From a virus, in IMG/VR virus record IMGVR_UViG_3300028030_000032, positions 1 through 39,870 of that record: DNA of 39,870 nt; one strand, given 5' to 3'. Shown here piece by piece: positions 3,793 to 34,815 of this stretch (position 1 is the stretch's first letter; each line of letters begins with the position of its first letter). A program made the position numbers and the translations under genes. A model generated the notes under the pieces. The model was not told where the DNA came from. It did not search any database and worked only from the letters and a program-made list of their open reading frames with translations.

Positions 3793-4812
3793 TTATTCAA
3801 GCAGATTTATAGCCGCCTTTTGTTCCGATGCGGAGACGTGCTGATACACCTTGGCGGTAATTCCAGGGTCAGAATGCCCAAGCAATTCCGATACCGTTTT
3901 CAGGCTGACCCCTTTCCTGAGCAAGTCAGTAGCAAAGGCATGGCGCAGGTCATAGAGCCTTAATCTTCTTGTCACACGCGCCCTTTTCTTGGCTGCCTTC
4001 CATGCCTTCTTGATCGAATCAACCCGGTGCCCGTGGTAATGCACAATGTACCTGATACCGTCCTTTATGTCTCCCTCGTACCAGCAGTCAAGGTGATCGT
4101 ATAGCACATGATGGAGCGGCACCATCCGTTGAGGGAGCCCGCCTTTCCTGGCGGAAATTACCTGGATTGTCTTGTTGTGGAAATCAACGGCATCCCATGT
4201 GAGAGAGAGCAATTCTTCTTTCCCCGGCCGGAGCCCGGTATAATAAGAGACGATCAGTGCTCTTTTAAGGTGCGGAGCGGCCGCCTTTACAATCGCGTCA
4301 AATTCAGGCTTTGACGGCGGCATGATTATGGCGTCGTCCCGCTTTGGCATCTCAAACCCTTCCATGGGATTATGTGCCAACAGGCGGCGTTTTACCGACC
4401 ACCTGAGTATTGCCCTTATGTCTGATAATTCCCGGTGGATGGTGGTGTTTTTGACTGTCCTTGACCTGCCGGCCACATATTGATCCAGCACGGTTGGGAC
4501 GATCTGGTGCGCCTGCATGTTTCCAATGCGCGGGACAATGATTCTTTCCAGCTTGATATACAGGTTCCGATAGCTGGAGTCGGCCATGGTGTTGGCCTTT
4601 GCCTCAAGGTAGGAATTGCAAAGCTCTGTAAAGGTGGGACTGCTTGTTGTCTTCCTGGCGCCGAGTCCCAGGGAGAGATTAAATTCAATAGCCGCCCTCT
4701 CCGCCTCCGGGCCCCGGCCAAAGTATTTTTTATTTGTTGTTGGCCTGGCCTTATCCTTGCCCTTTTGGTAGCGGACTATCCACCTGCCGTCTTTGAGTTG
4801 GTGGACTGACAT
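3793..4812 (-). CDS. int: Tyrosine recombinase, phage integrase
   Basis: 339 aa with an N-terminal arm-binding region (about 1-55), a SAM-like core-binding domain (about 56-150) and the catalytic domain (about 165-335). Catalytic residues are visible: R195 (TGLRPGKEE), K223 (ARKGG), R290 and H291 (LYDLRHAFAT, with Tyr in place of the first His of HxxRH, a common variant), H313 (LLGHSDPGIT) and the nucleophile Y323 (KVYQHV). It ends 73 bp from the tRNA-Pro core and should integrate the phage there. The upstream 146 bp contains two similar motifs, AGTCCACAC and AGTCCACCT, that could be arm-type sites. No separate excisionase is certain; the HTH protein at 7495-7977 is one candidate. Confidence 0.93.
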   Translation of the reverse strand: MSVHQLKDGRWIVRYQKGKDKARPTTNKKYFGRGPEAERAAIEFNLSLGLGARKTTSSPTFTELCNSYLEAKANTMADSSYRNLYIKLERIIVPRIGNMQAHQIVPTVLDQYVAGRSRTVKNTTIHRELSDIRAILRWSVKRRLLAHNPMEGFEMPKRDDAIIMPPSKPEFDAIVKAAAPHLKRALIVSYYTGLRPGKEELLSLTWDAVDFHNKTIQVISARKGGLPQRMVPLHHVLYDHLDCWYEGDIKDGIRYIVHYHGHRVDSIKKAWKAAKKRARVTRRLRLYDLRHAFATDLLRKGVSLKTVSELLGHSDPGITAKVYQHVSASEQKAAINLLE

Positions 4813-5536: not shown

Positions 5537-6271
5537 TTAATATTCCTTCGTTTTCTGCACGACACAGCCGACAATTCTGAATTCTTTGCCGGTCATCTTC
5601 ATGGTGTCATATTTTTCATTCAGCGGCTTTAGATAGACATCGTTGCCGTCCCTGATGAACTGCTTGAACGTGGCCTCGCCATTATCATTGTTCCCGTTCT
5701 CAATTTTGGCGACAACATACCGGCCTGTTTCCGGTGGAATTGATGGGTCTACCACGATAATATCTCCGGGCATGAACTCAGGGAACATTGAATCCCCAAC
5801 GATCCGCAGGGCAAACGTGTTGTCACTGACGGGACGAAACACCCGCACAAATTCTTCCGCATCACCCGGTAAAAACTGATCAACTATATCTGTCCACCCT
5901 CCTGCCTGCACCCAGGAGATTATTGGAACATCCCTCCATGGTTGGTTGCTGACACGCGCAAGCCCATGGAACCTGGTCGGGGCAACCGATACCGAACCGG
6001 TATTTATCCCCGGCCACATGGCAGGGTTATTTCCTTCGAGTATCCAGCGGCCAAGGTCGAGAATTTGTTCGTAGGTGTAGCCGAGAGAATCGGCGATCAT
6101 ACGGCGCACCTCTTCGCTTCCCGGCCTGTCTCCTGATGCTATTCTATTGATGTATGATGGTTCAACGCCTATTTCGCGGGCAATTTTAGCCTGAATTCCA
6201 CGCTCTCCTTCTCTTACTATCCACGAAAAGGCCGCGTGAAATTGGCGTTCCACCTCTCGTCTTAGTGCCAT
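5537..6271 (-). CDS. CI-type repressor, HTH plus S24 self-cleaving domain
   Basis: 244 aa. Residues about 24-70 form a helix-turn-helix (IQAKIAREIGVEPSYINRIASGDR). The C-terminal half is an S24/LexA-type peptidase with nucleophile S161 (GDSMFPEFMPGDIIVVDP) and general base K203 (ATFKQF). An Ala-Gly cleavage site lies at 123-124 (WVQAGGW). RecA-stimulated autocleavage would inactivate it and induce the prophage. Its promoter has an extra palindromic operator in the spacer, so it probably autoregulates. The TATAAA -10 box ends only 5 nt before the ATG, so the transcript is predicted to be leaderless or nearly so. Confidence 0.92.
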   Translation of the reverse strand: MALRREVERQFHAAFSWIVREGERGIQAKIAREIGVEPSYINRIASGDRPGSEEVRRMIADSLGYTYEQILDLGRWILEGNNPAMWPGINTGSVSVAPTRFHGLARVSNQPWRDVPIISWVQAGGWTDIVDQFLPGDAEEFVRVFRPVSDNTFALRIVGDSMFPEFMPGDIIVVDPSIPPETGRYVVAKIENGNNDNGEATFKQFIRDGNDVYLKPLNEKYDTMKMTGKEFRIVGCVVQKTKEY

Positions 6272-6276
6272 ACTTC

Positions 6277-6305
6277 TTTATATTTCCCATTGGGAAACAA
6301 GTAAA
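6277..6305 (-). promoter_or_regulatory. Repressor promoter with operator in its spacer
   Basis: On the minus strand a -35-like TTTACT (6305-6300) and a -10-like TATAAA (6282-6277) are 17 bp apart. The spacer is filled by the palindrome TTTCCCATTGGGAAA (6283-6297), perfect around a central base. A protein bound there would block RNA polymerase. Confidence 0.7.
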
Positions 6306-6338
6306 GTGTTTTTTTTGTCATTTTGCGTCATTTTATTA

Positions 6339-6367
6339 TTGACAAAATGTTCCCAATGGGCAATGAT
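6339..6367 (+). promoter_or_regulatory. Early rightward promoter with operator in its spacer
   Basis: TTGACA (6339-6344) and AATGAT (6362-6367) are separated by 17 bp. The spacer contains TTCCCAATGGGCA (6350-6362), a copy of the operator at 6283-6297 read in the other orientation. It lies directly before the cro-like gene. The repressor and Cro-like protein should compete for the two sites. Confidence 0.72.
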
Positions 6368-6373
6368 AGCCAC

Positions 6374-6625
6374 ATGAAAAACGTAACCCAAAAAAAAATA
6401 GCCGAATGGTGCGGCCTCAAGGAGCCTTTTTTATCAAAGATTTTAAATGGTAAAAAGAGGCCGAGTGCCGAGAGAGCTGAGGCCCTGGAAGAAATTACCG
6501 GAATATCGTTTCGTGACTGGTTGCGAGCAGACCATGAAGAACTAAGGAAAAAAGTCGTTATTTCCTATCAGGTAATTTATAGCAACAAAAAGGACCACAA
6601 TAACAAGCCTGCCGTAAAGGCGTAA
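6374..6625 (+). CDS. Cro-like helix-turn-helix regulator
   Basis: 83 aa from the ATG at 6374. Residues about 5-30 form a helix-turn-helix (QKKIAEWCGLKEPFLSKILNGKKRPSAERA) typical of XRE/Cro proteins. In-frame ATGs at 6347 and 6356 lie inside the operator and upstream of the predicted transcription start, so 6374 is preferred; the mRNA would then be leaderless or nearly so. It is the first gene rightward from the immunity region and should repress the repressor promoter. The tail after residue 60 is basic and Asn/Lys-rich. Confidence 0.8.
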   Translation: MKNVTQKKIAEWCGLKEPFLSKILNGKKRPSAERAEALEEITGISFRDWLRADHEELRKKVVISYQVIYSNKKDHNNKPAVKA

Positions 6626-13007: not shown

Positions 13008-13405
13008 AAATAATCATCCCAGGCAATGCCATTGCCAAGAAAAACAGTCAACGAGTTGTGCGGATGGGCGGGAGGTATGCCATCCGCGCATCCAAAGCAT
13101 ATGACAAATGGGAAAAAGCCGCGCTCCAGCACCTGCAATGCAGGTATGGCGGAGTGGTTTGGAAAGGTTGCTACCCGCTCCGGTTCCATATCTTTTTCTG
13201 GCGCGCAAACAAACGTAAATTTGATTTAAGCAATATGCTTGAAGGATCCCAAGACGTACTCCAAAAAGCCGGGATCATTGAGGACGATAGCATGAGGCAC
13301 GTAGTCCCTGTTTTTGATGGATGGGACATTGATAGGGATAATCCAAGGGTTGAAATTTTTCTTGAGAAATATTGTGATAATATCAAAAGGATTGCCAAAA
13401 CATGA
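13004..13405 (+). CDS. rusA: RusA-family Holliday junction resolvase
   Basis: 133 aa, ATGA-coupled at both ends. The sequence opens with 'IIIPGNAIAKKNSQRVV', typical of the RusA beta strand and loop. The acidic active site is visible: D74 (KFDLSNMLEGSQDVLQKAGIIEDD), D84 and D94/D95, with basic residues R71, K72. RusA homodimers cut four-way junctions and remove branches before packaging. Length and motif order are normal. Confidence 0.88.
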   Translation: MKIIIPGNAIAKKNSQRVVRMGGRYAIRASKAYDKWEKAALQHLQCRYGGVVWKGCYPLRFHIFFWRANKRKFDLSNMLEGSQDVLQKAGIIEDDSMRHVVPVFDGWDIDRDNPRVEIFLEKYCDNIKRIAKT

Positions 13406-14457
13406 ATGACGACATACGGCTCTCTACCTCGTTTTTCTCAAACAGGAAAACAAAGAAGCTCAAAAGGAAAGCTGGTTACGATGGCATAGTTGCCTTGCTC
13501 ACCTTGTGGGCACGAGTTGCCATCGAAAAACCATGCGGCACGTTGCAAGGTTGGGACGACGAGGACATTGCAATTGAGGCTGATTATGACGGCGACGCGG
13601 GTGAATTTGTCAGTTTGTTGTGCGAAATAGGTTTTTTGGACAAGGATTCAGAAGGAACATATTCGCTTCATAACTGGACCAAAAGACAAGGCTGGGTTGC
13701 AAAATCAAATGAAAGGGCCGAACGAGGAAGGCTGTCAAGAATGGCGAAAACTCACCGGGATATATATCAAAAACTTATTGACGAAGGGTACACCGGAATA
13801 TCAAAGGAGCAGTACGAAAGGTTAACCGCCGTCAAGACTCCTGTTGACGAAAGGTTAAGCAATGCTCAAGCAGTTGTTAAGCAGCCAATAACCCCTGCGC
13901 CTGCCCCTTCTCCTTCTCCTTCTCCTTCTCCTGTTCCTTCTCCTTCTCCAAAAGAAAGAGTAAACGCGTGTGAGGTTGACGGCAGTGCCCAGCGGGTCAA
14001 AAAAATAAAAAACGAATACCTGAACTTTTCAGATGCATTTTACCAATATCTCTCAAGGTCAGGGAAAGGGAAAAAGAAATATACAAAAAAAGAGATTGTT
14101 TCAGGGGCGGACACTATACGCCTTTTAGTTGAAGTTGATTCATACGACCTGGACACGGAAATAATTCCATCATTGCGATGGGCGATCCAGCATCATTTTT
14201 GGTCAGGGAGAATTAAGAGTCTTGCTTCGCTGAGGAGGAAGGAAAAAGGGAGCAAGGATCATAAATTTTGCAATATGTTCAACCAGTTCAAGTCAAAAAA
14301 CATTAAGATTCCGCCAGCAAAGAAAAACACTTTTGATCATTTTAAGGACATTTTTAAGGAGGGTTCAAGTGACCAAAGACCTGTCGATTTCAACAAAATT
14401 GAGAAAGGAGACGGTTGTTGCCCAGTTGGGACGCTTGGCTTGCCACTACCCCAATAG
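13402..14457 (+). CDS. Replication initiator / replisome organiser-like protein
   Basis: 351 aa. Residues 1-115 resemble the winged-helix N-terminal domain of phage replication organisers ('DIRLSTSFFSNRKTKKLKRKAGYDGIVALLTLWARVA', 'LCEIGFLDKDSEGTYSLHNWTKRQGW'). Residues about 162-183 are a Pro-Ser linker built on CCTTCT-type repeats. Residues about 200-290 form a second helical domain. It should bind the phage origin and recruit the helicase loader encoded next. The last 29 codons overlap that gene, and the tail (DGCCPVGTLGLPLPQ) looks like out-of-frame extension. Confidence 0.75.
   Translation: MNDDIRLSTSFFSNRKTKKLKRKAGYDGIVALLTLWARVAIEKPCGTLQGWDDEDIAIEADYDGDAGEFVSLLCEIGFLDKDSEGTYSLHNWTKRQGWVAKSNERAERGRLSRMAKTHRDIYQKLIDEGYTGISKEQYERLTAVKTPVDERLSNAQAVVKQPITPAPAPSPSPSPSPVPSPSPKERVNACEVDGSAQRVKKIKNEYLNFSDAFYQYLSRSGKGKKKYTKKEIVSGADTIRLLVEVDSYDLDTEIIPSLRWAIQHHFWSGRIKSLASLRRKEKGSKDHKFCNMFNQFKSKNIKIPPAKKNTFDHFKDIFKEGSSDQRPVDFNKIEKGDGCCPVGTLGLPLPQ
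13888..13950 (+). repeat. Pro-Ser-coding CCTTCT microsatellite
   Basis: The run CCTTCT / CCTGTT / CCTTCT encodes PSPSPSPSPVPSPSP inside the replication protein. Repeats of 6 bp keep frame when they expand or shrink, so linker length may vary between relatives. Confidence 0.75.
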
Positions 14458-14784: not shown

Positions 14785-14915
14785 GACTAACGGCTGAGGC
14801 CACCTGCCACAAGCGAACAGACTGAAATCATGCCAAAGGAGATGAACATGCACAGTAAAACCACCACTCCGGAACCCGCGCGGCCTTGTGGTCAGCGTGA
14901 GGCGATTTGTTATAC
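14785..14915 (+). other. attC: attC-like site a (left end of the array)
   Basis: R'' GACTAAC (14785-14791), R' GTTATAC (14909-14915), 131 bp. Inner arms: CTGCCACAAG (14804-14813) pairs with CTTGTGGTCAG (14885-14895), leaving one extra T in the 3' arm. Its R'' has no matching GTTAGTC upstream, so the cassette to its left has lost its 5' end or never existed. The Shine-Dalgarno and start of the PP-loop gene lie inside this site. Confidence 0.8.
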
Positions 14916-15645
14916 AGACCAGCCCATGAGGAATTACCTATCATTTGGCGGTGGCGTTAATTCGGTTGCTTTATATCTTCTTTGCCTGGATTGGGGCCTT
15001 AATTTTGAAGGAATATTTGTGGATCATGGAGCGGACTGGCCGGAGACATACGAATATTTTGATATGTTCCAAGGATGGTTAAAAAAGAACGGCCATAAAC
15101 AAATTACCGTCCTCGTCCCAAACGTGCAGGGATTTACAAATCTATACGATTACTATCTGTTTAAGAAGAAGGTGCCGAGCATTATGAAGCGTGATTGCAC
15201 CGATAAGTTTAAGTTGCGGCCAGTTTATAAATATATTGAGAAGCCTTGTTTTATGCTCTTGGGAATTGACGCGGGCGAAAGCCACCGGGCTAGGTTGAAC
15301 AGCAAGAAAAGTGTGGAAAACAGATACCCGCTTATCGAAGAGGGAATTAATCGCGATGGATGCAAAAAAGTTATCACGGATCATGGCTTGCCGGTACCAA
15401 TGAAAAGCGGCTGTTTCTCTTGCATGTTCCAACGCAATGCTCAGTGGAAACAACTTAGAATGATCCACCCTGATTTATTTTGTAAAGCCCAAAAGTTGGA
15501 AAAGGCGGCAATGGATGACAGACTGGCCCAAGGAAAAAAGGCTTTTACTTTGAGAAACAACGGGCGGACAATAGGACAGATTATATACGATGCCCCTAAC
15601 CTTTGGCCGGAGATGGATTACCCGCCGTGCCAGTGTTGTTTGTAA
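14848..15645 (+). CDS. Cassette 1: PP-loop ATPase, PAPS-reductase-like
   Basis: 265 aa from the ATG at 14848, preceded by AAAGGAG (14834-14840) inside attC site a. An alternative in-cassette start is the ATG at 14926, without a ribosome site. The PP-loop 'LSFGGGVNSVALYLL' (residues 31-45) binds ATP and releases pyrophosphate. The later 'KRDCTDKFKLRPVYKYI', 'CFSCMFQRNAQW' and C-terminal 'PPCQCCL' resemble PAPS reductase/DndC-type phage proteins, with Cys pairs that may bind a metal or sulphur. The substrate is unknown; DNA or tRNA thiolation and base modification are possible. It is the only gene of its cassette. Confidence 0.75.
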   Translation: MHSKTTTPEPARPCGQREAICYTDQPMRNYLSFGGGVNSVALYLLCLDWGLNFEGIFVDHGADWPETYEYFDMFQGWLKKNGHKQITVLVPNVQGFTNLYDYYLFKKKVPSIMKRDCTDKFKLRPVYKYIEKPCFMLLGIDAGESHRARLNSKKSVENRYPLIEEGINRDGCKKVITDHGLPVPMKSGCFSCMFQRNAQWKQLRMIHPDLFCKAQKLEKAAMDDRLAQGKKAFTLRNNGRTIGQIIYDAPNLWPEMDYPPCQCCL

Positions 15646-15649
15646 GTCT

Positions 15650-15736
15650 GTATAACGGTCTTGAGATCAGCGGCCAGCCAATGCGGTAGATAGGTAGATA
15701 GCGCTGGTCCTGGTCCGTTGGAGCGATGGGTTAGCT
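15650..15736 (+). other. attC: attC-like site b
   Basis: R'' GTATAAC (15650-15656) is the exact complement of the R' at 14909-14915; R' GTTAGCT (15730-15736). 87 bp. Inner arms: CGGCCAG (15671-15677) pairs with CTGGTCCG (15710-15717), again with an unpaired T. Its left arm shares AGCGGCCAGCC with site c. Confidence 0.8.
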
Positions 15737-15742
15737 GGTTGA

Positions 15743-15759
15743 TTTTTTTTGGGGGGGGG
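15743..15759 (+). repeat. Homopolymer run T8G9 before the cassette 2 gene
   Basis: Eight T followed by nine G directly precede TAATTATG. The G-run is the only Shine-Dalgarno-like element, so slippage would change spacing. Sequencing error in such a run is also possible. Confidence 0.7.
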
Positions 15760-15764
15760 TAATT

Positions 15765-16127
15765 ATGAACAAAGAATGCGGAAACAAGTTTTGTGACAGC
15801 TTTGACACAAAATACACGGCAAATTGTGGAATTATGACTCTACGTAAGGTTGCTACCTGCCCTTTGTATAGGCCAGAAGAAAAGACTATTGACAGGGTTG
15901 TTTTCAGGTTGACAGACAAGCAAAATGACAAGTTGCAGCCAATTTTTGAAAAGGCGAATGATATGCTTGGAGTAGTTTTTGCTCAAATTTTTGACACAGA
16001 AGATGGCCCCGGTTTTATCGAGGTTAGGTTTGTGGAAAAAGATGTTGCCATGAATGTGCAGAGAGCCATGGGAGTGAAGCCAGGGAAATTGCACCCAGGG
16101 ATTACTTTTATTGAAACAGATGTTTAA
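15765..16127 (+). CDS. Cassette 2: 120-aa protein with Cys-rich N-terminus
   Basis: 120 aa. Cysteines at 5, 10, 21 and 32 within the first 35 residues (ECGNKFCDSF..., NCGIM..., ATCPLY) suggest a zinc-binding knob. The rest is an alpha/beta domain ('RVVFRLTDKQNDKLQPIFEKANDMLGVVFAQIFD', 'GFIEVRFVEKDVA'). The start is preceded by a run of eight T and nine G (15743-15759), so upstream spacing could vary. The stop lies 1 nt before attC R''. Not recognised as any family. Confidence 0.6.
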   Translation: MNKECGNKFCDSFDTKYTANCGIMTLRKVATCPLYRPEEKTIDRVVFRLTDKQNDKLQPIFEKANDMLGVVFAQIFDTEDGPGFIEVRFVEKDVAMNVQRAMGVKPGKLHPGITFIETDV

Positions 16128-16128
16128 C

Positions 16129-16212
16129 AGCTAACGGTAGAATTGAGCGGCCAGCCTTGGGCGTATCCAAAAGCCGCGAGTAATTTCTGGTCCGCTCGAG
16201 TGGAAGTTATCT
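16129..16212 (+). other. attC: attC-like site c
   Basis: R'' AGCTAAC (16129-16135) complements the R' of site b; R' GTTATCT (16206-16212). 84 bp. Inner arms TGAGCGGCCAG (16144-16154) and CTGGTCCGCTCG (16187-16198), with one extra T. The clearest of the sites. Confidence 0.85.
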
Positions 16213-16241
16213 TTTTATTTATGGATGGGGGGTGGTAGTGA

Positions 16242-16412
16242 ATGACTTATAAAGGAGTTTTACTTGTAACGGCGGCATTTATAGCAGGCAACTATATTTT
16301 TCAATTTCTGCCAGTTGTTGGAAAGAATGATTTAAGCATTGCGTTTGAAAGGTCTTTTTTTCAAGGGGTTCTTGGGTTGTACATAAGCGCAAAAATGTAT
16401 TTTGGGCTTTAA
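16242..16412 (+). CDS. Cassette 3, first gene: 56-aa membrane protein
   Basis: Too short for most gene callers but well placed. ATG at 16242, preceded by GGGGGGTGG. The product has two hydrophobic stretches (GVLLVTAAFIAGNYIFQFL, about residues 5-23, and FFQGVLGLYISAKMYFGL, about 39-56), likely two membrane spans, with a polar turn between. It ends 26 nt before the next small membrane gene. A holin, toxin or membrane-stress peptide are all possible; no family is recognised. Confidence 0.55.
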   Translation: MTYKGVLLVTAAFIAGNYIFQFLPVVGKNDLSIAFERSFFQGVLGLYISAKMYFGL

Positions 16413-16438
16413 GGATAATGGATTGATAGAGGTGCCTT

Positions 16439-16573
16439 GTGAAAAATTTAATCAATTTAGCTTTGTCGGCCGGGAATGCTGCAATGTTTTCCGAGTATGG
16501 TTGGTGGGGAAATTTATTCGCTGCGATATTTTGTTTTGGCATTTTCTTGTGGGTTATACACGAAGAAAGATAA
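16439..16573 (+). CDS. Cassette 3, second gene: 44-aa membrane protein
   Basis: GTG at 16439 with GAGGTG (16429-16434) upstream. The product has one strong membrane helix (GWWGNLFAAIFCFGIFLWVI, about residues 21-40) and an acidic-basic end (HEER). Its TAA stop is formed by the TAAC of attC R'' (16568-16574), as in other cassettes here, which supports the frame. It forms a pair with the preceding 56-aa gene, possibly a two-component membrane system such as holin-antiholin, but this is speculative. Confidence 0.5.
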   Translation: MKNLINLALSAGNAAMFSEYGWWGNLFAAIFCFGIFLWVIHEER

Positions 16574-16692
16574 CGGTTTCGCATGAGGGGCGCCGTGCAG
16601 CCGAGAATGAACCTGTAAGCGAAAGCTTTACAACTGAACCAATAAACGACAACCGCCAGGTGGAAAGCGTCCCTTCAATGCGGTTGTTATAT
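16568..16692 (+). other. attC: attC-like site d
   Basis: R'' AGATAAC (16568-16574) complements the R' of site c; R' GTTATAT (16686-16692). 125 bp. The 5' arm GCATGAGGGGCGC pairs imperfectly with the 3' arm GCGTCCCTTCAATGC, with one extra T. Confidence 0.75.
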
Positions 16693-16707
16693 TACGGAGG
16701 TTTGGAA

Positions 16708-16965
16708 ATGACAAGCTGGAAAGAAATGTTAAAGATTGCGTTTGAAAAAAACAAAGATGATTTTGATAAAATGATCTGCACTTTGTCTGATAATGATCTT
16801 ATAACAGAGTTTAACGATGGTTTCGGCGCGAGCGAAGGCAAACCATTCACTGCGTGGGGAGATAAGTATGTTTATTTTCCTGTGGTATATGATGGTGCTG
16901 AATGGGTGGGATCTGCCCCGCGAAATCCATGCAACGAAGCAACGTCTCACTGGGGAGGTGAGTAA
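16708..16965 (+). CDS. Cassette 4: 85-aa soluble protein, unknown
   Basis: 85 aa with a good ribosome site (GGAGG at 16696-16700, 7 nt spacing). The first half is helical (SWKEMLKIAFEKNKDDFDKMICTLSDNDLITEF), the second has beta strands and aromatics (TAWGDKYVYFPVVYDGAEWVGSAPRNP). The stop codon's last A is the first base of attC R''. The gene occupies nearly all of its cassette. Unrecognised. Confidence 0.65.
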   Translation: MTSWKEMLKIAFEKNKDDFDKMICTLSDNDLITEFNDGFGASEGKPFTAWGDKYVYFPVVYDGAEWVGSAPRNPCNEATSHWGGE

Positions 16966-17087
16966 TATAACGATATAAATCAGCGGACAGCCTTGGGGCT
17001 TCCGCCAAAACTGGTTGATAGCAATGGATGAAAATATAACACAAAATTCGCCAACGAGTGCTGTTCCGCTGAATTGCCTTGTTAGCA
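16965..17087 (+). other. attC: attC-like site e
   Basis: R'' ATATAAC (16965-16971) complements the R' of site d; R' GTTAGCA (17081-17087). 123 bp. Inner arms TCAGCGGACAG (16980-16990) and CTGTTCCGCTGA (17061-17072), one extra T. The arm sequence is related to sites b and c (AGCGG-CAGCC). Confidence 0.83.
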
Positions 17088-17104
17088 AGCCCGGCCACGG
17101 AGGT

Positions 17105-17593
17105 ATGGGAACCCACCAATCGGCCAGGATGAAAAAAGATGAATGGTTGACACCTCCAGAGATTATTGACGCACTTGGGGTTTTTGACCTAGATCCTTGC
17201 TCTCCGGTTAACAGACCTTGGCCAACCGCTGGAACCCATTACACGGTTGAGGATAACGGCCTTTCGTGTCCTTGGTTTGGCCGTGTTTGGTGCAACCCTC
17301 CTTATGGGCTTGTAGCTGCATCGTGGCTAAGTAGGTTGGCCGAACACGGGAACGGAATCGCCCTTATATTTGCCCGGACTGAAACAAAAATGTTTTTTGA
17401 CCATGTTTGGAATAAGGCCCATGCTGTTTTGTTTATTCAGGGGCGGTTATATTTCCATCATGTCGATGGGGCTAGAGCAAAAGCAAACGCAGGAGCACCA
17501 TCTTGTTTAGTCGCATACGGGGCGGTCAACGCCGATTGTCTTTATAATGCCAACATTGCCGGACAATTTGTGAGGCTGATTCCGGCTTGCTAA
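17105..17593 (+). CDS. Cassette 5: phage-type DNA N6-adenine methyltransferase (Dam)
   Basis: 162 aa from the ATG at 17105; in-frame alternatives are 17024 (inside attC e) and 17129. Family features are clear: 'KKDEWLTPPEIIDALGVFDLDPCSP' at the start, then the catalytic tetrad N64-P-P-Y (VWCNPPYG), then 'GNGIALIFARTETKMF'. This is the phage Dam family (N6 methylation of adenine, often at GATC). The stop TAA is part of the next attC R'' (TGCTAAC). Such an enzyme may protect phage DNA from restriction or alter expression. Being cassette-borne, it could be gained or lost as a unit. Confidence 0.88.
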   Translation: MGTHQSARMKKDEWLTPPEIIDALGVFDLDPCSPVNRPWPTAGTHYTVEDNGLSCPWFGRVWCNPPYGLVAASWLSRLAEHGNGIALIFARTETKMFFDHVWNKAHAVLFIQGRLYFHHVDGARAKANAGAPSCLVAYGAVNADCLYNANIAGQFVRLIPAC

Positions 17594-17709
17594 CGCTATA
17601 GCTCACCGGTGCCAATCCATAATCACAAAAACAACGGGGGATAAAAGATGACCGATAAACCAACTGAAAAATCAACGTGTAAAGCATCCGGTGAAGCGGA
17701 TGGTTATGT
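17588..17709 (+). other. attC: attC-like site f
   Basis: R'' TGCTAAC (17588-17594) complements the R' of site e; R' GTTATGT (17703-17709). 122 bp. Inner arms TCACCGGTG (17603-17611) and CATCCGGTGA (17685-17694), one extra T. The start and ribosome site of the next gene lie in its central part. Confidence 0.8.
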
Positions 17710-18013: not shown

Positions 18014-18068
18014 CTTGTGATTAACGGTTCAACAATAAAATCAAACCTGTAAAATTGAACCGTTAATC
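18008..18068 (+). other. attC: Degenerate terminal attC-like site g
   Basis: R'' ACATAAC (18008-18014) exactly complements the R' of site f. Beyond it, GATTAACGGTTCAA (18019-18032) and TTGAACCGTTAATC (18055-18068) form a perfect 14-bp hairpin with a 22-nt loop. No spaced R' with an extrahelical base is present; GTTAATC (18062-18068) is the only possible R'. The site is decayed, or the hairpin doubles as a terminator at the end of the array. Confidence 0.5.
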
Positions 18069-18098
18069 AACAGCATAAACATAAAAAATACCGATATT

Positions 18099-20346: not shown

Positions 20347-20388
20347 GCCCGTTTCTCTGCGTTGATGCGTGGGGGAACGGGCTTTTTT
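20347..20388 (+). terminator. Intrinsic terminator in the late leader
   Basis: GCCCGTT (20347-20353) and AACGGGC (20376-20382) form a stem, followed by TTTTTT (20383-20388). It would stop transcripts from the late promoter before TerS unless an antiterminator acts, as tR' does in lambda. Confidence 0.75.
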
Positions 20389-20395
20389 GTTGATA

Positions 20396-20977
20396 ATGGC
20401 AAAAAAGAAACGAAAAAAGATTGACTGGGAGAGGATTGAAGCCGAGTATCGGGCTGGGATGCTTTCTATTCGAGAGATTGCCCGGAGGAATGATTGTAAT
20501 GATCGCTCTATCAGGAAAAAAGCAAAAAAGGAGGGGTGGGAAAGGGACCTGTCCAAGAAGGTTAGACAGAAAGTCCGCAGCAAGGTAGTCCGCAGTCAAG
20601 TCCGCACCGCGGCCTCTGAGAAGGAGATAATAGAGGAGGCGGCCACTGCCGGGGCCCAGATTATTGAATTGCATAGGGTTGGAATCAAGAACTTGCGCAA
20701 GCTGGAAGAGGAGTTGACGCGGGAACTACGAGACAGTCCAACCAAGCTTTATCTTTCCCGGTATGGCGGCGAAATAATTGAGAAGGAGTACGGGATAATC
20801 GTTACGGAGAGGATTTCGGCATTGCAGGCCCTGGCGAACACGATGCATAAAAGAATCCAGCTTGAGCGCCAGGCGTATAACCTGGATGAAGAGCGAGATA
20901 CGATAAACAAGACTATCGCGGAAATGTCGGATGAGGAGCTTCAGCTAATCGCTCGTGGGCGAGTTGGAGGAGATTGA
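20396..20977 (+). CDS. terS: Terminase small subunit
   Basis: 193 aa from the ATG at 20396, immediately downstream of the leader terminator; no clear Shine-Dalgarno is visible, so the start is less certain. An N-terminal homeodomain-like HTH (MLSIREIARRNDCNDRSIRKKAKKEGWERDL) is followed by charged coiled-coil helices (LRKLEEELTRELRDSP..., RISALQALANTMHKRIQLERQAYNLDEERD). This is the standard DNA-recognition plus oligomerisation layout of TerS. It overlaps TerL by 4 nt (TTGA). No visible pac or cos site. Confidence 0.83.
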   Translation: MAKKKRKKIDWERIEAEYRAGMLSIREIARRNDCNDRSIRKKAKKEGWERDLSKKVRQKVRSKVVRSQVRTAASEKEIIEEAATAGAQIIELHRVGIKNLRKLEEELTRELRDSPTKLYLSRYGGEIIEKEYGIIVTERISALQALANTMHKRIQLERQAYNLDEERDTINKTIAEMSDEELQLIARGRVGGD

Positions 20978-22485
20978 AACAAGATATGGCTGTTGTCGGC
21001 CCCAAAAAAAGAGCTGCAGCAATAGAACTGCTCAAGCGCCGAGCGGCTCGGGCAAACATGCTCGATTACACCAGCTATATGATGGACACATTTGCTCCGG
21101 CTCATCACCATGGGGTTATTTGCTCAAAGCTGGAGGCGGTAGAGCGCGGGGACATTAAGCGCCTGATCATCACTGTCCCGCCCAGGCATACAAAGTCGCT
21201 GTTGTCATCGGAAATGTTTCCGTCCTGGTACATCGGGCGCAATCCGGACAAGCAGGTAATAGCCTGTTCGTACAGTGCAGACCTGGCCGGGGATTTTGGC
21301 CGGAAAGTAAGAAACCATGTTAAGCGGCAGGCGTTTAGAAATCTTTTTCCCGATGTTCGACTGCTGGCCGACTCACAGGCTGCCGGTAAATGGAACACCG
21401 AGAGCGGCGGGGCTTATGTGTCTGCAGGGATAGGCGGCTCGATAACTGGCAAAGGCGCCCATGTAGCAATCATCGACGACCCAATAAAAAACCGGGAAGA
21501 GGCTGAATCCCCGGTGGTTAGGAAGAAAATATGGAACTGGTACACATCAACGCTTTACACCAGATTGATGCCTGGTGGAAGCCTGATTGTAATTATGACC
21601 AGGTGGCACCATGACGACCTTGTTGGTCGATTGCTTCGGGAACAAGAAAATGGAGGGGATCGGTGGGAAGTTATTAATCTACGGGCGGTTGATGATGACT
21701 GGACCAAGGCCCTCTGGCCGGAGTGGTATCCAGTTAGTGAGCTGAGGAAGATACGGGCGGTTATCGGTTCCCGTGATTTCGAGGCCCTGTATCAGCAGCA
21801 ACCATCCGGCGATACGTCCCTCGGTTTTGATGAGGATTGGCTTTGTTTCTACGGCATGGAGCCGGAGCCGGAACTGGTTAATTTCTATATTGTTGTGGAT
21901 CCGGCCAACGAGAAGAAAAAAGAGTCTGATTACACATCAATATGGGTGATTGGGCTACATCAGGATCGCAACTATTATCTGTACGATGGAGTGCATGACA
22001 AGCTCAATCTGACAGAGCGAGCAAATACCCTGTTTGACCTGCATAGAGAGTATCACCCGCTCGGCGTAGGGTACGAGCAGTACGGGATGCAGGCAGACAT
22101 CCAGCACATAGAGTCATTGATGGAGGCGCGGAGTTACCGTTTCACAATTACGAAACTTGGCGGTTCAACTCCAAAAAATGACCGGATCAGGAGGCTGGTT
22201 CCCCTGTTTGAAAACTCAAGGATATGGATGCCGCATACAATGTTCAGGCGCAACTGGGAGGGCAACAACGTCAATATTATCCAGGAGCTTATCCGGGATG
22301 AGTATAAATTGTTCCCGGTGCCGATCCACGATGACATGCTGGACAACTTGGCAAACATAGTACACCCTGACCTGCAGGCTCAGTTCCCGAGGGCAATCAG
22401 GCCCAGGAGGAAACCAACATGGCAGGAAAAGCTCAATAAAAAGATTAACGCCCGGCAAACAGGCGGCTCTTTTATGTCTCAGTAA
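20974..22485 (+). CDS. terL: Terminase large subunit
   Basis: 503 aa from a TTG at 20974 that overlaps the TerS stop, behind GGAGG; the ATG at 20986 is an alternative. The ATPase shows a Walker A-like VPPRHTKS (residues 68-75) and Walker B VAIIDD (164-169). The nuclease domain shows D309 (IVVDPA) and D453/D454 (IHDDMLD), the metal ligands of the RNase H-like fold. It powers DNA entry into the procapsid and cuts the concatemer. Length and motif order are normal. Confidence 0.95.
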   Translation: MKQDMAVVGPKKRAAAIELLKRRAARANMLDYTSYMMDTFAPAHHHGVICSKLEAVERGDIKRLIITVPPRHTKSLLSSEMFPSWYIGRNPDKQVIACSYSADLAGDFGRKVRNHVKRQAFRNLFPDVRLLADSQAAGKWNTESGGAYVSAGIGGSITGKGAHVAIIDDPIKNREEAESPVVRKKIWNWYTSTLYTRLMPGGSLIVIMTRWHHDDLVGRLLREQENGGDRWEVINLRAVDDDWTKALWPEWYPVSELRKIRAVIGSRDFEALYQQQPSGDTSLGFDEDWLCFYGMEPEPELVNFYIVVDPANEKKKESDYTSIWVIGLHQDRNYYLYDGVHDKLNLTERANTLFDLHREYHPLGVGYEQYGMQADIQHIESLMEARSYRFTITKLGGSTPKNDRIRRLVPLFENSRIWMPHTMFRRNWEGNNVNIIQELIRDEYKLFPVPIHDDMLDNLANIVHPDLQAQFPRAIRPRRKPTWQEKLNKKINARQTGGSFMSQ

Positions 22486-22496
22486 CGGACACAACC

Positions 22497-24629
22497 ATGG
22501 CTAAAAAAAGCAAAAAAGAATCTGAGATTGACCTCGCTGCCGAGAATTGGGATCGGTATCAATATGGCCGTTCTGTCGGGCATGACGACTACATTGCCAC
22601 CGCTCAGCGCAACGATGATTTTTATCTCGGTGGTGGCTTGCAGTGGAGCGAGGCAGACCGCAAGGCAATGACCGCGCAAAAGCGACCGATGATTGAGCTA
22701 AACCACATTATGCCAGCCGTGCACTCTGCAATCGGCATGCAACTCCATAGCCGGGTAGACATTGACTTCCAGCCGGTCGGGGAAGGTGCGGACGAAAAGA
22801 CAGCGGAAGTCTTATCAAAGGTCGTGATGCAGGTCGCCGACCAGGTAGAATACCATTGGAAAGAATCCCTGCAGTTTGAGGACGGAGAGATCCAGCAGAG
22901 GGGTTTCCTTGATTTCCGGGTTGATTTCTCCAATAACTTCCAGGGCGAGATTGCCTGCGACATCCTTGACCCGCTTGATGTTATCCCGGACCCTGATGCT
23001 CAAGGGTATGAGCCGAGCAAATGGCAGGACGTAACCGTTATCCGATGGTTGACGTATAGCGAGATAGAGCAACGGTATGGAGCAAAGGAGGCCAGGAGTG
23101 TTTCTCAACTGGCCGATGCCTATTTTGAGGATGACAATTACTCCGACCGGTCACATTTCGGTGATGACGCGGACGGTGGATCAGGTTACAGGGGTTGGGT
23201 CGAAAAAGACAAAAAGACCAAGACCCGCCGATACATGGTTATCGACCGTCAGCATTGGCGCATGGAGCGAGAGCCGGTCATTGTGTATTACACAGGCGAG
23301 GTAAAGCCGCTTGAGGGCATGACCGAACAACAGATAGCCCGTGCCCTGGAGATGGGTGTCAGGTCGGTATCTGATGTCCGCAAGGTCAGATGGACAGTCA
23401 CCTGTGGCAAAGCTGTTTTGTTCGATGATTGGTCCCCGTATGAGACGTTTACTATTATTCCATTCTTCCCTGTTTTCAGACGTGGCAGAACTCGCGGGAT
23501 GGTGGATAACCTGCGGAGCCCGCAGGAGCTTGAAAATAAGTCCGTCACCTACAGCACGGAAATTCTCGGGCAGGTATCAAATGCCGGTTGGGACGTGGAA
23601 GAAGACTCACTCGTCAATATGGAGCCGGAAGACCTGGAAAAATACGGCAGCAAGAACGGCCTTGTTGTTGTCTACCGGAAAAACTCCACCCAACCCCACA
23701 AAAGAGAACCGAGCCAGCCGCCGGCCGCTGCAAATATGCTTGCAGACCGGGCGGAATATGCGATCAAGACCGTATCGGGAATGTCTGATGCTATCCAGGG
23801 CCAGCAGGGGAACGAGGTGTCAGGAGTTGCAATCCAGGCCAAGCAGTACCAGGGTCAGTTACAAATGGGCAGACCATTTGACAACTTGGCCCTTACCCGG
23901 AGGCTGGCGGCCAGAAAATTCCTTGAGCTGATCCAGAAATTCTATACCGAGGAGCGGGTAATCCGGATTATTGACCCGCAGACCAAAAAACTAAAGGAAG
24001 AGGTTGTGATCAATCAGGTGGACGAGACAGGAAACATCCTGAACGATGTAACTATCGGGCGTTATGACATGGCTATTACCGAGACGCAGACACACGCCAC
24101 CTTCCAGAGCAACCAGTTTGAGCAGATGTTGACCCTCAAAAAAGAGGGCGTCCCAGTCCCGGATAAATATCTGATTGAATCTTCAATGATTACCAAGAAG
24201 CACGAGATTGTTGACGACATGGCGCAGTCTGCAGGCCCGCCGCCTGACCCTGAAATTCAGGGCAAGATTGAAGAGAGGGCTGCAAAGGTAGAACTGACCA
24301 AAGCGCAGGCGGAAAAAGTAAAGGCCGAGGCGGTCAACACCAGCGTAGATTCTCAATATAGTGCCGTGCAGACAGCAGAGGTTATAGCCTCTGTTCCCCA
24401 AGCTGCACCGTTGGCTGACCAGTTGTTAAGGTCCGCCGGAGATGTTGACAAGGACGCTCCGCCGATTGTCCCGGAGAGCAACGCCGGACCTGTTCAGCCT
24501 GAAGGATTCCCGCCGAACACGGACCCGACTACCCCGGTCCCAGTTCCTACGCCTGAAAGCCCGGCAGTTGGCGCTGAGAGTGGAATTGAAACGCAACGAA
24601 TGGATGGGAACGGTGGACCCAAAAGATAA
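22497..24629 (+). CDS. Portal protein, P22-like family
   Basis: 710 aa, close to the length of P22 gp1. Signature parts include 'RNDDFYLGGGLQWSEADRKAMTAQKRPMIELNHIMPAVHSAIG', 'FRVDFSNNFQGEIACDILDPLDVIPDPDA', 'FRRGRTRGMVDNLRSPQELENKSVTYSTEILGQVSNAG' and 'SGVAIQAKQYQGQLQMGRPFDNLALTRR'. These match the P22-type portal: a dodecameric ring at the DNA-entry vertex. The C-terminal 90 residues are helical then Pro-rich and probably form the barrel and its tail. It overlaps the next small gene by 26 nt. Confidence 0.93.
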   Translation: MAKKSKKESEIDLAAENWDRYQYGRSVGHDDYIATAQRNDDFYLGGGLQWSEADRKAMTAQKRPMIELNHIMPAVHSAIGMQLHSRVDIDFQPVGEGADEKTAEVLSKVVMQVADQVEYHWKESLQFEDGEIQQRGFLDFRVDFSNNFQGEIACDILDPLDVIPDPDAQGYEPSKWQDVTVIRWLTYSEIEQRYGAKEARSVSQLADAYFEDDNYSDRSHFGDDADGGSGYRGWVEKDKKTKTRRYMVIDRQHWRMEREPVIVYYTGEVKPLEGMTEQQIARALEMGVRSVSDVRKVRWTVTCGKAVLFDDWSPYETFTIIPFFPVFRRGRTRGMVDNLRSPQELENKSVTYSTEILGQVSNAGWDVEEDSLVNMEPEDLEKYGSKNGLVVVYRKNSTQPHKREPSQPPAAANMLADRAEYAIKTVSGMSDAIQGQQGNEVSGVAIQAKQYQGQLQMGRPFDNLALTRRLAARKFLELIQKFYTEERVIRIIDPQTKKLKEEVVINQVDETGNILNDVTIGRYDMAITETQTHATFQSNQFEQMLTLKKEGVPVPDKYLIESSMITKKHEIVDDMAQSAGPPPDPEIQGKIEERAAKVELTKAQAEKVKAEAVNTSVDSQYSAVQTAEVIASVPQAAPLADQLLRSAGDVDKDAPPIVPESNAGPVQPEGFPPNTDPTTPVPVPTPESPAVGAESGIETQRMDGNGGPKR

Positions 24630-24936
24630 TATCCCAGAGGGATATGACCTTGATTCCCATGGGATAGTAATAGGTAGCAAAAAATGGGAAGAAGCTGTTG
24701 AGGTGGCGATATCAACAGCAAACGAAGAAATTAAACGTTGCGGAATAGATGAGATTTCTAACCCAGAAGGGGTGATTTTAAAATTAAGAGAACTTTTTTC
24801 ACGGGGGGATATTGCTTGCCCAAGAAGGATGATTCGCATTTTGGAAAATCAATTATTGTCATACAGATGCTTGGCCGGAAGGTGTTACTGGCCTTGTATT
24901 GATTGGGATTATAAAACAATTTTAATAAATAAGTGA
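24604..24936 (+). CDS. 110-aa protein after the portal, unknown
   Basis: ATG at 24604 overlaps the portal gene by 26 nt; a GTG at 24612 is another possible start. 'DLDSHGIVIGSKKWEEAVEVAISTANEEIKRCGI' and 'NPEGVILKLRELFSRGDIACPRRMIRILENQLLSYRCLAGRCYWPCIDWD' suggest a mixed helical protein with several Cys. More AT-rich than the portal gene, so possibly a later insertion. Function unknown. Confidence 0.6.
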   Translation: MGTVDPKDNIPEGYDLDSHGIVIGSKKWEEAVEVAISTANEEIKRCGIDEISNPEGVILKLRELFSRGDIACPRRMIRILENQLLSYRCLAGRCYWPCIDWDYKTILINK

Positions 24937-24946
24937 GGATTGAAAG

Positions 24947-25168
24947 ATGGGAAAAGAAATTACAGGGAACAGTGTTATCGAAAATAACTTCAGGTATCAC
25001 TCTCCAAAGCCTGGGCAGAATGAAAAGTATGAGGCGTTGAGAGGAGAGGCGAGAAAACTTGCCTATATGTTTGACGAAATGTGCCCTAATAGCCGGGAGC
25101 GCAGCCTTGCAATGACCAAGCTTGAAGAGGCGGTAATGTGGGCCAACGCTTCAATAGCGAGAAATTGA
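24947..25168 (+). CDS. Acb2/Tad1-like helical-hairpin protein, candidate anti-defence
   Basis: 73 aa. The pattern 'FRYHSPKPGQNEKYEALRGEARKLAYMFDEMCPNSRERSLAMTKLEEAVMWANASIARN' fits the Acb2/Tad1 hairpin family as I know it (short R.YHPP start, long helix, 'P.SRE.S.A.T.LEEAVMWANAAIAR'). Characterised members sequester cyclic nucleotide or cyclic ADP-ribose signals of CBASS and Thoeris immunity. The start has GAGG 6 nt upstream (AGTGAGGATTGAAAG). It lies between portal and scaffold genes, a common place for small host-takeover genes. The match is by eye only. Confidence 0.6.
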   Translation: MGKEITGNSVIENNFRYHSPKPGQNEKYEALRGEARKLAYMFDEMCPNSRERSLAMTKLEEAVMWANASIARN

Positions 25169-25204
25169 CGGCAAGTTAACATGGAATTAACACGAGGTAT
25201 TTCA

Positions 25205-25354
25205 ATGAAAAAAGAAGAAGAATGGCGAGTTGAAGACGACATGCGGACGCTGTTGCGAGCCGCCAAGATCAAGAAGGACAAGAAGCGCATGGCCGCTGTC
25301 GCCAAAATGGCGAAGGCCAAGTTAACAGAAATGGCATCGCTTGCCAAAGAGTAG
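25205..25354 (+). CDS. 49-aa charged helical protein
   Basis: A short frame with GAGGT upstream (25192-25196) encodes a highly charged, Lys/Ala-rich helical protein (KKDKKRMAAVAKMAKAKLTEMASLAKE). It lies between the Acb2-like gene and the scaffold. Its length and position suggest a small accessory to head assembly or a regulatory peptide. Unrecognised. Confidence 0.5.
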   Translation: MKKEEEWRVEDDMRTLLRAAKIKKDKKRMAAVAKMAKAKLTEMASLAKE

Positions 25355-25439
25355 CGAGTTTCGCCCTGTCGGTTGGCGATGAAACCGACCCGGTGACCGT
25401 CTACCGGATTGAAGTGGCGAGTATTACAACGGAGGAACA

Positions 25440-26516
25440 ATGAACGAGACAGACACGCTTTTAGACGAAGGTCAGACCGTCGAAACCGAGATGACCGAGG
25501 AGGAACTCGCAGAAGCCCGTGGAGACTTTGTTGAGGAACCTGACCAGGAAACCGCCGGTGATGATGAACTTTCCGAAGATGACATCAACTCCCTGGCTGA
25601 TCTGGCAGGCTCTGCGGCAACCGATGATGACGGAGGGGGAGAAACCGCAGGTGGAGACGAAGCCAAGGGCGGCGAAGAAGGTTCTGCCGAAGGCAGCGAC
25701 CAAGGGGGCGAGAACACCGACAAGGGCGAGCAATATCCTGAAACGATGCCGTACAGCAGGTTTGCATACGAAGTAAAAAAGCGTCACGAACTTAAAGAGC
25801 AGTTCAACGATCTTCAGGAGCAGCATAAATCACTGCTTGACCTGTTTAACAAATCAATGGCCGGCAAGGGTCAGGGCGATCAAGGAGGCGATGCCGGGGC
25901 GAACAATACCGGAGGCGCCACGGATGAATTTAACCTTGAGGAAAAGCTGGTTGAACACTCCGAGGCCGTTGCCAACGGCGACGTTGAAGAGGCGTCAAAG
26001 TTGATGAAGGAGATCATCGACAACCAGGTCAATATGTCGAAGAACATGGCGGCCCAGGCAATCAGGGAATATGAGGCCGGGCTTGAACAAAAGTCTGCAG
26101 AGTCTCTCGTAAATGAAATACTCAGCGAGCATAAAGATTTTTTCAAGGATCCTGTCCAGCTCAAGGCGTTTGATAGTCTCAAAATTAGTCTCATAACTGA
26201 GGACGGGTATTCGCTAAAAGATGCTCTTGTCGCGGCGAAAAAGGCTTTCTTTGGCGAAAAAGAAACTGGCGGTGACTCCAAAAATACAGATACGGACGAT
26301 GCCGACGACCTGAGAGCAAAGGCACTGGCCGCGCAGAAGAAAAAGTCCATCGAACGTAATGCAGACGCCTCAAAACGGCAGCCTCCCTCAACCGCAGCCG
26401 CCGGGCATGGTCAGCGCGGTAAGGCGACAAAGAAAGGGGCGCTTGCTTTTTCAGAAAAAGAATATTCCCAAATGACCGAGGAAGAAAAAGCCGAGGCCAG
26501 GGGAGATGTTTTATAG
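25440..26516 (+). CDS. Scaffolding protein
   Basis: 358 aa, strongly acidic in the first 100 residues with Gly/Asp/Glu runs, then a helical core (NLEEKLVEHSEAVANGDVEEASKLMKEIIDNQVNMSKNMAAQAIREYEAG) and a basic C-terminal third. It lies between portal and capsid, as scaffold genes do. It guides capsid assembly and leaves the head during packaging. An odd duplicate links its ends: 'MTEEELAEARGDF' near the start and 'MTEEEKAEARGDV' at the C-terminus. RBS GGAGG at 25432-25436. Confidence 0.78.
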   Translation: MNETDTLLDEGQTVETEMTEEELAEARGDFVEEPDQETAGDDELSEDDINSLADLAGSAATDDDGGGETAGGDEAKGGEEGSAEGSDQGGENTDKGEQYPETMPYSRFAYEVKKRHELKEQFNDLQEQHKSLLDLFNKSMAGKGQGDQGGDAGANNTGGATDEFNLEEKLVEHSEAVANGDVEEASKLMKEIIDNQVNMSKNMAAQAIREYEAGLEQKSAESLVNEILSEHKDFFKDPVQLKAFDSLKISLITEDGYSLKDALVAAKKAFFGEKETGGDSKNTDTDDADDLRAKALAAQKKKSIERNADASKRQPPSTAAAGHGQRGKATKKGALAFSEKEYSQMTEEEKAEARGDVL

Positions 26517-26628
26517 CGCCGAACTCGCTTTAAAATAGTTAAAGGGCTTTTCGTGGATTGTGCCCAAAAAAACAATAAACGGGTCTCGTTTCGGTAAACG
26601 TAAATGCCGCGGCTCGGTCACGCCTTAG

Positions 26629-26669
26629 ACCGTAAAAACTGGCACAAGATATTTTTACGGTAATTTTTT
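26629..26669 (+). terminator. Terminator-like hairpin before the capsid gene
   Basis: ACCGTAAAAA (26629-26638) and TTTTTACGGT (26652-26661) pair perfectly, followed by AATTTTTTTT. It lies in a 170-bp gene-free gap ahead of the major capsid gene and its ribosome site AAAAGGAG. It may be a partial terminator or RNA-processing site that sets capsid mRNA levels. Confidence 0.6.
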
Positions 26670-26686
26670 TTAAAAGGAGACCTACT

Positions 26687-27793
26687 ATGGCAGCTACGAA
26701 CTTTGCTGGATTAACCAGCGAACAGAAAACTTACTGGAAGCGGGACATCTGGACCTACATGCGGAATGAGGCCTTCATTTCGCGCCTCATGTCAAAATCT
26801 ACCAATGCACCCATTCAGCACATTACCGAACTGACCAAGGACGAAAAAGGCACCCGCGCCCTGATGTTCCTTGTCGCCGACCTGCAGGGACGCGGCGTGG
26901 TCAACGATAACGAGCGCGAGGGAAACGAAGAGGCCCTGCAGAGTTATGAAACTGAAATCAACATGGGGCTCATCTCTCATCAGGTCCGGAATAAGGGCAA
27001 GTTGAGTGACCAGAACCATGTAATTCGGTTCCGGCAGACTGCTCGTGACCGCCTGAAACAGTGGCTTGCTGATTCCGCCGACATCATGGCGTTTCTTACC
27101 CTGTCAGGTATCGGGTATGAGTACAATCTGGACGGTTCCACTGTTAACCCGGCCGAAAATGAATGGACACAGCTTGTTTTTGCTGCTGATGTTACCCCGC
27201 CGTCTGCCGGTCGTCATGTTCGATTTGACGGGTCCAGCCTCCGGACCGGAGACACCAGCGCAATTACTGCAGGTCATACTCCCAAATATGGGATGCTTGT
27301 TGATCTGCGCGCCTATGCAAAGACCAGCCACCTCAAACCGATCCGAGTAGGCGGAAAGGAATACTACCAGTACGTGTGCGATCCCCGCACCCTTGCCACC
27401 CTCAAGAAGGATCCGGACTTCCTGTCAGCTGTGACCAGAGCCGCCAAGCGCGGGAAAGAGAACCCGTTCTTCTCCGGCGCCATCACCACTATTGACGGCA
27501 TTGTGATCATGGAACACAACCTTGTCTACAATACGACCGGGGCAACTTCCGGGTCCAAGTGGGGCGCAGCCGGGGATGTAAACGGGACCCGTTCCCTGCT
27601 TCTTGGCGCCCAGGCTCTCGGTATGGTTGACATCGGGGCCCCTGATTGGGTTGAGAAGGGATTCGATTACGATTCCAAGCAGGGTATCAGCACCGATAAG
27701 TTTATCGGGTTCAGGAAACCACGGTTTGACAACCACTGGACCGGGAACGCTGATGAGGATTTCGGTGTTATCGCCTGCGACTTGGCAATATAA
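26687..27793 (+). CDS. Major capsid protein, N4-gp56-like family
   Basis: 368 aa. The N-terminal 'SEQKTYWKRDIWTYMRNEAFISRLMSKSTNAPIQHITELTKDEKGTRALMFLVADLQGRGVV' and middle 'LISHQVRNKGKLSDQNHVIRFRQTARDRLKQWLADSADIMAFLTLSG' fit the N4-gp56 (DUF4043-type) capsid family, an HK97-fold protein. The product forms the icosahedral shell. RBS AAAAGGAG lies 12 nt upstream. The order scaffold then capsid agrees. The P22-like portal with this capsid type is a familiar pairing in environmental podoviruses. Confidence 0.9.
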   Translation: MAATNFAGLTSEQKTYWKRDIWTYMRNEAFISRLMSKSTNAPIQHITELTKDEKGTRALMFLVADLQGRGVVNDNEREGNEEALQSYETEINMGLISHQVRNKGKLSDQNHVIRFRQTARDRLKQWLADSADIMAFLTLSGIGYEYNLDGSTVNPAENEWTQLVFAADVTPPSAGRHVRFDGSSLRTGDTSAITAGHTPKYGMLVDLRAYAKTSHLKPIRVGGKEYYQYVCDPRTLATLKKDPDFLSAVTRAAKRGKENPFFSGAITTIDGIVIMEHNLVYNTTGATSGSKWGAAGDVNGTRSLLLGAQALGMVDIGAPDWVEKGFDYDSKQGISTDKFIGFRKPRFDNHWTGNADEDFGVIACDLAI

Positions 27794-31007: not shown

Positions 31008-31028
31008 ATCATTAGGCGGTAACTAAAT

Positions 31029-32152: not shown

Positions 32153-32153
32153 T

Positions 32154-33482: not shown

Positions 33483-33485
33483 CTA

Positions 33486-34016: not shown

Positions 34017-34026
34017 CGGTGACAAC

Positions 34027-34812: not shown

Positions 34813-34815
34813 TAA

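Follow-up and report, generated by a model that had tools for sequence, protein, structure and literature searches.

A phage-type Dam methyltransferase gene as a probable cassette of an attC array inside a temperate phage

The gene considered here encodes a Dam methyltransferase and lies at positions 17105..17593 on the plus strand of the window, by which we mean the whole stretch of DNA analysed (39,870 bases), the IMG/VR record IMGVR_UViG_3300028030_000032. Profile searches identify the window as the contig of a temperate tailed phage, with hallmark genes on both sides of an array of attC sites in which the Dam gene occupies the fifth cassette. The 162-aa product is, by homology, a phage-type DNA N6-adenine methyltransferase that resembles the phage Dam proteins of PF05869 (E 2.6e-12; 47.2 bits against a curated cut-off of 28.1) and phrog_111 (E 1.4e-44) over its full length, which bears out the assignment to a phage family made in an earlier note on this DNA. 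The (D/N)PP(Y/F) catalytic motif is present as WCNPPYG, and relatives keep NPPY or NPPF. The protein is related to the TIGR01712 phage_N6A_met equivalog and lies outside it, scoring 32 bits where 97 are required. The open reading frame (ORF) is intact, its ATG is preceded by GGAGGT, and its stop codon overlaps the R'' box of the attC that follows. Dam relatives were found in 358 phage records, the best at 71% identity, and those at 60–71% identity belong to Pseudomonas, Halomonas, Salicola, Agrobacterium, Mycobacterium and Burkholderia phages; no solved structure of a relative was found by sequence search.

The Dam cassette (C5) spans 17081..17709 on the plus strand. By the integron rule, the start of a cassette is the complement of the R'' box in that cassette's own attC, and in C5 the R' box GTTAGCAAG is the reverse complement of CTTGCTAAC at 17586, with nine matching bases. 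The limits from which the earlier note had read a cassette, GTTAGCA at 17081 and TGCTAAC at 17588, are therefore real, and they lie within two full sites, attC4 and attC5. Taken alone, this heptamer pair is at chance level, since GTTAGCA has four hits in the window where 3.79 are expected, and counts of GTTRRRY or GTTAGCA by themselves were rejected as cassette evidence; what upholds the pair is its place within a chain of six sites. Five pairs of a GTT-word and its downstream reverse complement tile the region (14909/15648, 15730/16128, 16206/16566, 16686/16963 and 17081/17586), each with R'/R'' complementarity of 8–9 bases, and a sixth pair is probable at 17703/18007; pairs elsewhere in the window are chance ones. 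A home-made attC scanner, which required R'', R' and nearby complementary arms, placed an attC at each junction, giving six head-to-tail sites in one orientation that tile 14785-17709 (2.9 kb). The single Dam cassette of the earlier note thus understated the structure, an array of at least five cassettes.

The longest chain of attC sites consistent with R'/R'' pairing comprises six sites in the window, whereas 300 shuffles of its full length, with dinucleotides preserved and both strands covered, gave two at most. This result contradicts the idea that ordinary phage operon genes merely happen to be separated by attC-like inverted repeats or terminators, as do the constant place of the extra arm base and the lack of such a pair at most other Dam loci. 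The heptamer count and the unremarkable fold energies of single sites agree with a chance origin, to which we nevertheless give almost no credence.

In single-strand folds of the bottom strands, attC0, attC2, attC4 and attC5 form the arm helix with a single base outside it, and attC1 does so in part; the base is a bulged A in the arm of attC2 and an extrahelical A in attC4 and attC5. The extra unpaired L' base of attC1 and attC3 was recognised by eye. In a gapless alignment the arms fall out of register between site types, and an Rfam search gave no match. The window's own tyrosine integrase scores 59.7 bits against TIGR02249, with a cut-off of 265, and is a phage rather than an integron integrase; the pairing of an intI gene with an attI site that makes a complete integron is thus lacking in the window array. 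With six attC sites bearing R''/R' and L''/L' boxes, arranged head to tail by the R'/R'' rule on a record where no integron integrase was found, the array classes as a CALIN (cluster of attC sites lacking an integrase).

Dam loci were surveyed from an IMG/VR scan (79 loci) and a species-genome scan (15 loci) with a two-sided cassette test, which demands an attC on each side and an R' complementary to R''. Six loci exceeded the null maximum of 15.7 in 1380 shuffled tests, namely L005 (29.1), L082 (24.8), the window (21.0), L019 (20.2), L007 (19.9) and L029 (19.5), with the next-best Dam locus at 13.4. A relaxed test adds L021 (11.7 against a null maximum of 9.5). In the Bacteroidia genomes described below, the score of L223 (14.9) depends on a poly-T box and is under the null maximum. 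Beyond the window, cassette-borne Dam is found on at least five IMG/VR phage contigs and on one phage contig in a Bacteroidales bin (L082). Terminase, portal, head or tail genes are present in the records of L005, L007, L019, L021, L026 and L029, and the L082 contig, binned as a Bacteroidales genome, is yet a phage with terminase and portal genes. The contigs are metagenomic, and some arrays lie at contig ends (G001, G002, G005 and L082). The attC sites of the Dam cassettes, aligned across phages, have no single common form: those of L005 and L082 are alike by eye, the others unlike. The L082 array (G006:C57 50096-54268) has ten sites and closes a phage contig of 55 kb, which also carries a 3185-aa ORF and an FtsK-like gene.

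At most other Dam loci the two-sided test detected no attC pair, and no convincing pair surrounds the published Dam genes of Pseudomonas 8P, Halomonas QHHSV-1, Salicola SCTP-2, Agrobacterium Atu_ph08, Mycobacterium Ciao and Burkholderia Bcep176, from which the attC-bounded window Dam differs in this respect. The suggestion of the earlier note that integrons circulate the phage Dam gene was not upheld: no bacterial integron with Dam was found, every Dam cassette found is on a phage contig, and among 395 Bacteroidia genomes, ten of which have a Dam match, the only cassette-borne Dam is that of the L082 contig.

The strongest evidence for movement of Dam as a cassette between phages, and direct evidence, comes from a high-GC set of loci, L029, L026/L028 and L021, which have 84–91% DNA identity essentially over the Dam cassette alone. 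L026 and L028 are 100% identical over 9.6 kb and are copies of one phage, so the set represents three phage lineages. Between L029 and L026, DNA identity is 90.6% over 5934-6466, with no other match in the 6.6 and 9.6 kb compared; L029 and L021 match at 84% over the Dam cassette and also along 70 bases at another place in the arrays. In the alignment of the set, the DNA is poorly conserved up to the R' box; near-identity begins at R' GGTTGTGCC, runs through Dam and fades soon after R'' GGGCACAACGC. The dN/dS ratio among these Dam genes is 0.07–0.10, and Dam has thus been kept functional. A tree of 75 Dam proteins, six of them cassette-borne, requires five changes of label for these six, of which at least two are forced by well-supported branches, so Dam gained or lost the cassette state more than once. 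A Dam cassette shared amid differing surroundings, and a change from unlike to like DNA at R', suggest that site-specific exchange once took place, and from these comparisons unrelated phages seem to trade Dam as a cassette unit. The proposal of the earlier note that phages take up methyltransferases as cassettes accordingly fits Dam cassettes on several unrelated phages and homology limited to the cassette. At a further locus, L018 (4050-4502), a Dam gene has 82% DNA identity to the L029 cassette and lacks attC; GGTCGGACGCC downstream of it resembles a decayed GGTCGAACGCC box, and cassette limits were possibly lost.

The same comparisons bear on a fossil origin of the array, in which part of a host chromosomal integron was acquired once by homologous or illegitimate recombination and is now ordinary phage DNA with immobile cassettes. 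The record without an integron integrase suits such an origin, and so do the array's two ends, where attC0 stands without a cassette on the left and the last cassette, C6, without an attC on the right, as in a torn-out fragment; integron fragments in Vibrio phages are, moreover, described by Qi et al. Other phages, however, share the Dam cassette while its surroundings differ and the switch falls at R', and Dam-bearing arrays recur in phages of 31–64% GC. We consider a fossil array rather unlikely.

Movement of the cassettes by the phage's own tyrosine recombinase, instead of an integron integrase, is brought to mind by G001, in which a 275-aa phage-type tyrosine recombinase (L005 2558-3463 = G001 26286-27191) starts about 16 bases past the final attC-like site in the array that bears Dam, in the same direction. 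In the window and in G002, by contrast, the integrase lies 6–10 kb from the array, and the window enzyme adjoins the repressor, like a normal lysogeny integrase. This mode of movement appears very improbable.

Taken as a whole, it is likely that Dam is the fifth cassette of a CALIN inside a temperate phage, made mobile by an integron integrase acting in trans and serving against restriction. The attC bottom strands would become single-stranded during phage DNA entry or replication, and an integron-bearing host would supply the integrase that recombines them, so that phages could gain, lose and exchange cassettes. Having no promoters, the cassettes would be transcribed from the rightward operon of the phage, and Dam would methylate adenines of phage DNA, thus protecting it from host restriction, with the PAPS-reductase-like product of cassette C1 possibly adding another modification. 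Judged from sequence, the protective role of Dam is plausible.

Several observations weigh against this explanation. An intI gene was not found on the record by profile search, and the record may be incomplete, so mobility needs an assumed host enzyme. The window Dam cassette is without a near-identical copy elsewhere (the best IMG/VR match has 73% amino-acid identity), and its mobility is therefore argued by analogy with the L029/L026/L021 set, within which the attC downstream of Dam has itself diverged. Whole-site fold energies of the bottom strands are no lower than those of shuffles, and the attC3 arms are absent from the minimum-energy fold.

The function of the cassette could also lie in phage gene timing, replication or packaging, through epigenetic marking and not through protection from restriction. 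Some Dam-type enzymes do have roles in timing, replication or packaging, which counts in favour of marking, and no restriction system could be linked to the window Dam. One would expect a core regulatory gene, however, to stay fixed within a single lineage, but Dam is among exchangeable cassettes and is shared piecemeal; orphan methyltransferases, according to a cryoconite phage study (PMC7468147), are the commonest variable genes of those phages. Epigenetic marking as the role of Dam is accordingly judged unlikely.

Integrons are commonly regarded as bacterial systems for resistance genes. That unrelated phages have a methyltransferase cassette in common, and that their homology stops at the recombination boxes, would mean that phages, too, are supplied by the cassette system in the arms race over restriction, and would give a phage a testable route for changing its DNA modification in one step; an attC beside Dam is also a marker for finding further cases. 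The general idea that attC-bearing phages access methyltransferase cassettes was already published by Qi et al. 2023 (PMC9892861), who reported 17 CALINs in temperate and virulent phages, which are integrase-less attC arrays inside a phage like the one described here, and five methyltransferase cassettes of other Pfam families. They also showed in an assay that phage attC sites were recombined by IntI1, and they proposed that phages gain anti-restriction genes via cassettes. Phage CALINs with methyltransferase cassettes are thus known, and the window array belongs to that kind. New here are the recurrence of PF05869 Dam as cassette cargo and a homology between unrelated phages that stops at the cassette limits. 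Our set has the Dam cassette in common, while no cassette common to unrelated phages is reported in the available text of Qi et al., which drew on NCBI phage genomes rather than on IMG/VR. A literature search found no publication describing PF05869 Dam cassette cargo or cassette-limited Dam homology between phages. Among the variable (metagenomic island) genes of cryoconite phages (PMC7468147), DNA methyltransferases are the most frequent and "integron gene cassette" appears among the annotations; methyltransferases are prominent there as here, and the consulted text of that study contains no attC analysis or mechanism. The window array shares attC anatomy, head-to-tail cassettes and mostly unknown small proteins with sedentary chromosomal integrons, from which it differs in lacking intI, in having no attI found and in lying in a phage. 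That phages keep their own attC-cassette pool of anti-restriction genes (Dam, other methyltransferases and PAPS-reductase-like modifiers), which circulate between unrelated phages, are shuffled by host integron integrases and have their main reservoir in phages instead of chromosomal integrons, is a tentative suggestion that we regard as doubtful.

All window cassettes read rightward, as do the flanking replication and packaging genes, and all features of the array given below are on the plus strand. Its left end is attC0 (14785..14915; R'' GACTAAC, L'' CTGCCACAAG, L' CTTGTGGTCAG with one extra T, R' GTTATAC; scanner score 10.0), and no matching cassette start lies upstream, so its own cassette was lost or never present. 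Cassette C1 (14909..15736) has the R' box GTTATACAG, the reverse complement of CTGTATAAC at 15648, and carries an ORF (14926-15645) for a 239-aa PAPS-reductase-like protein (PF01507 E 3.2e-5; phrog_424 E 2.7e-34) followed by attC1 (15650..15736; GTATAAC ... GTTAGCT), which, like the other five sites, was found by the scanner and belongs to the chain. Two viral relatives of the C1 protein were found (75% and 43%), and each lies in an attC-bounded cassette, at L207 2528-3455 and L208 2873-3804; the L207 record has portal and primase genes and the L208 record tail genes. In the phage array at L189 (G003 30921-35527), successive cassettes carry Dam, an unknown protein and PAPS reductase, and two phrog_116 DNA methyltransferases come next. 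The attC-bounded C1 relatives and this G003 array make DNA modification a recurring theme of the arrays.

Cassette C2 (15730..16212), with R' GTTAGCTG as the reverse complement of CAGCTAAC at 16128, encodes a 120-aa protein (ORF 15765-16127) for which profile searches gave no family match, and ends in attC2 (16129..16212; AGCTAAC ... TGAGCGG-CCAG / CTGGTCCGCTCGA ... GTTATCT). Cassette C3 (16206..16692), with R' GTTATCTTT as the reverse complement of AAAGATAAC at 16566, contains two small hydrophobic ORFs, read from the sequence, and attC3 (16568..16692; AGATAAC ... GTTATAT); its segment 16242-16573 seems to encode hydrophobic peptides of about 56 and 44 aa, the second of which ends within R''. 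Cassette C4 (16686..17087), with R' GTTATATTA as the reverse complement of TAATATAAC at 16963, encodes an 85-aa phrog_21631 protein (ORF 16708-16965; E 5.5e-18) and ends in attC4 (16965..17087; ATATAAC ... TCAGCGGA-CAGC / GCTGTTCCGCTGA ... GTTAGCA), the best-scoring site of the array (12.0). The Dam cassette follows and is closed by attC5 (17588..17709; TGCTAAC ... TCACCGG-TGC / GCATCCGGTGA ... GTTATGT). Beyond it lies the probable cassette C6 (17703..18013), in which GTTATGTG at 17703 is the reverse complement of CACATAAC at 18007 and an ORF ending at 18013, with no family match, has its stop codon inside R'', as in C5. The attC scanner recognised no site after C6, whose attC was lost or is unrecognisable. 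Just past C6, at 18018-18069, is an inverted repeat whose 15-bp arms match perfectly around a loop of 22 bases (TGATTAACGGTTCAA / TTGAACCGTTAATCA); it holds TTAACGG and GTTAATC, which resemble attC end boxes, has no extrahelical base, and could be a terminator or an attC remnant.

Among viral contigs, C2 and C6 have no relatives, and C4 has 13, none of them convincingly in cassettes. The array DNA has no match in plasmids, and in phages Dam alone matches, at 65–71%. No syntenic relative or empty site of the window phage was found in a search with the terminase, exonuclease and phrog_3657 neighbours.

The array is positioned between replication and packaging genes. To its left are the phage tyrosine integrase (3793..4812, minus strand; phrog_1 E 1.2e-61), a CI-like repressor (5537..6271, minus strand; phrog_4 E 6.2e-35), from which the window phage is taken to be temperate, and, as the left flank, a phage replication initiation protein (13402..14457, plus strand; phrog_9474 E 1.7e-11). 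The right flank (20369..27793, plus strand) holds the small and large terminase subunits, the portal and the major head protein. Exonuclease VIII and RusA-like genes are also encoded by this phage. Within the replication initiation gene, in a Pro/Ser-rich linker, CCTTCT-type repeats are observed at 13905-13951, where length variation is possible.
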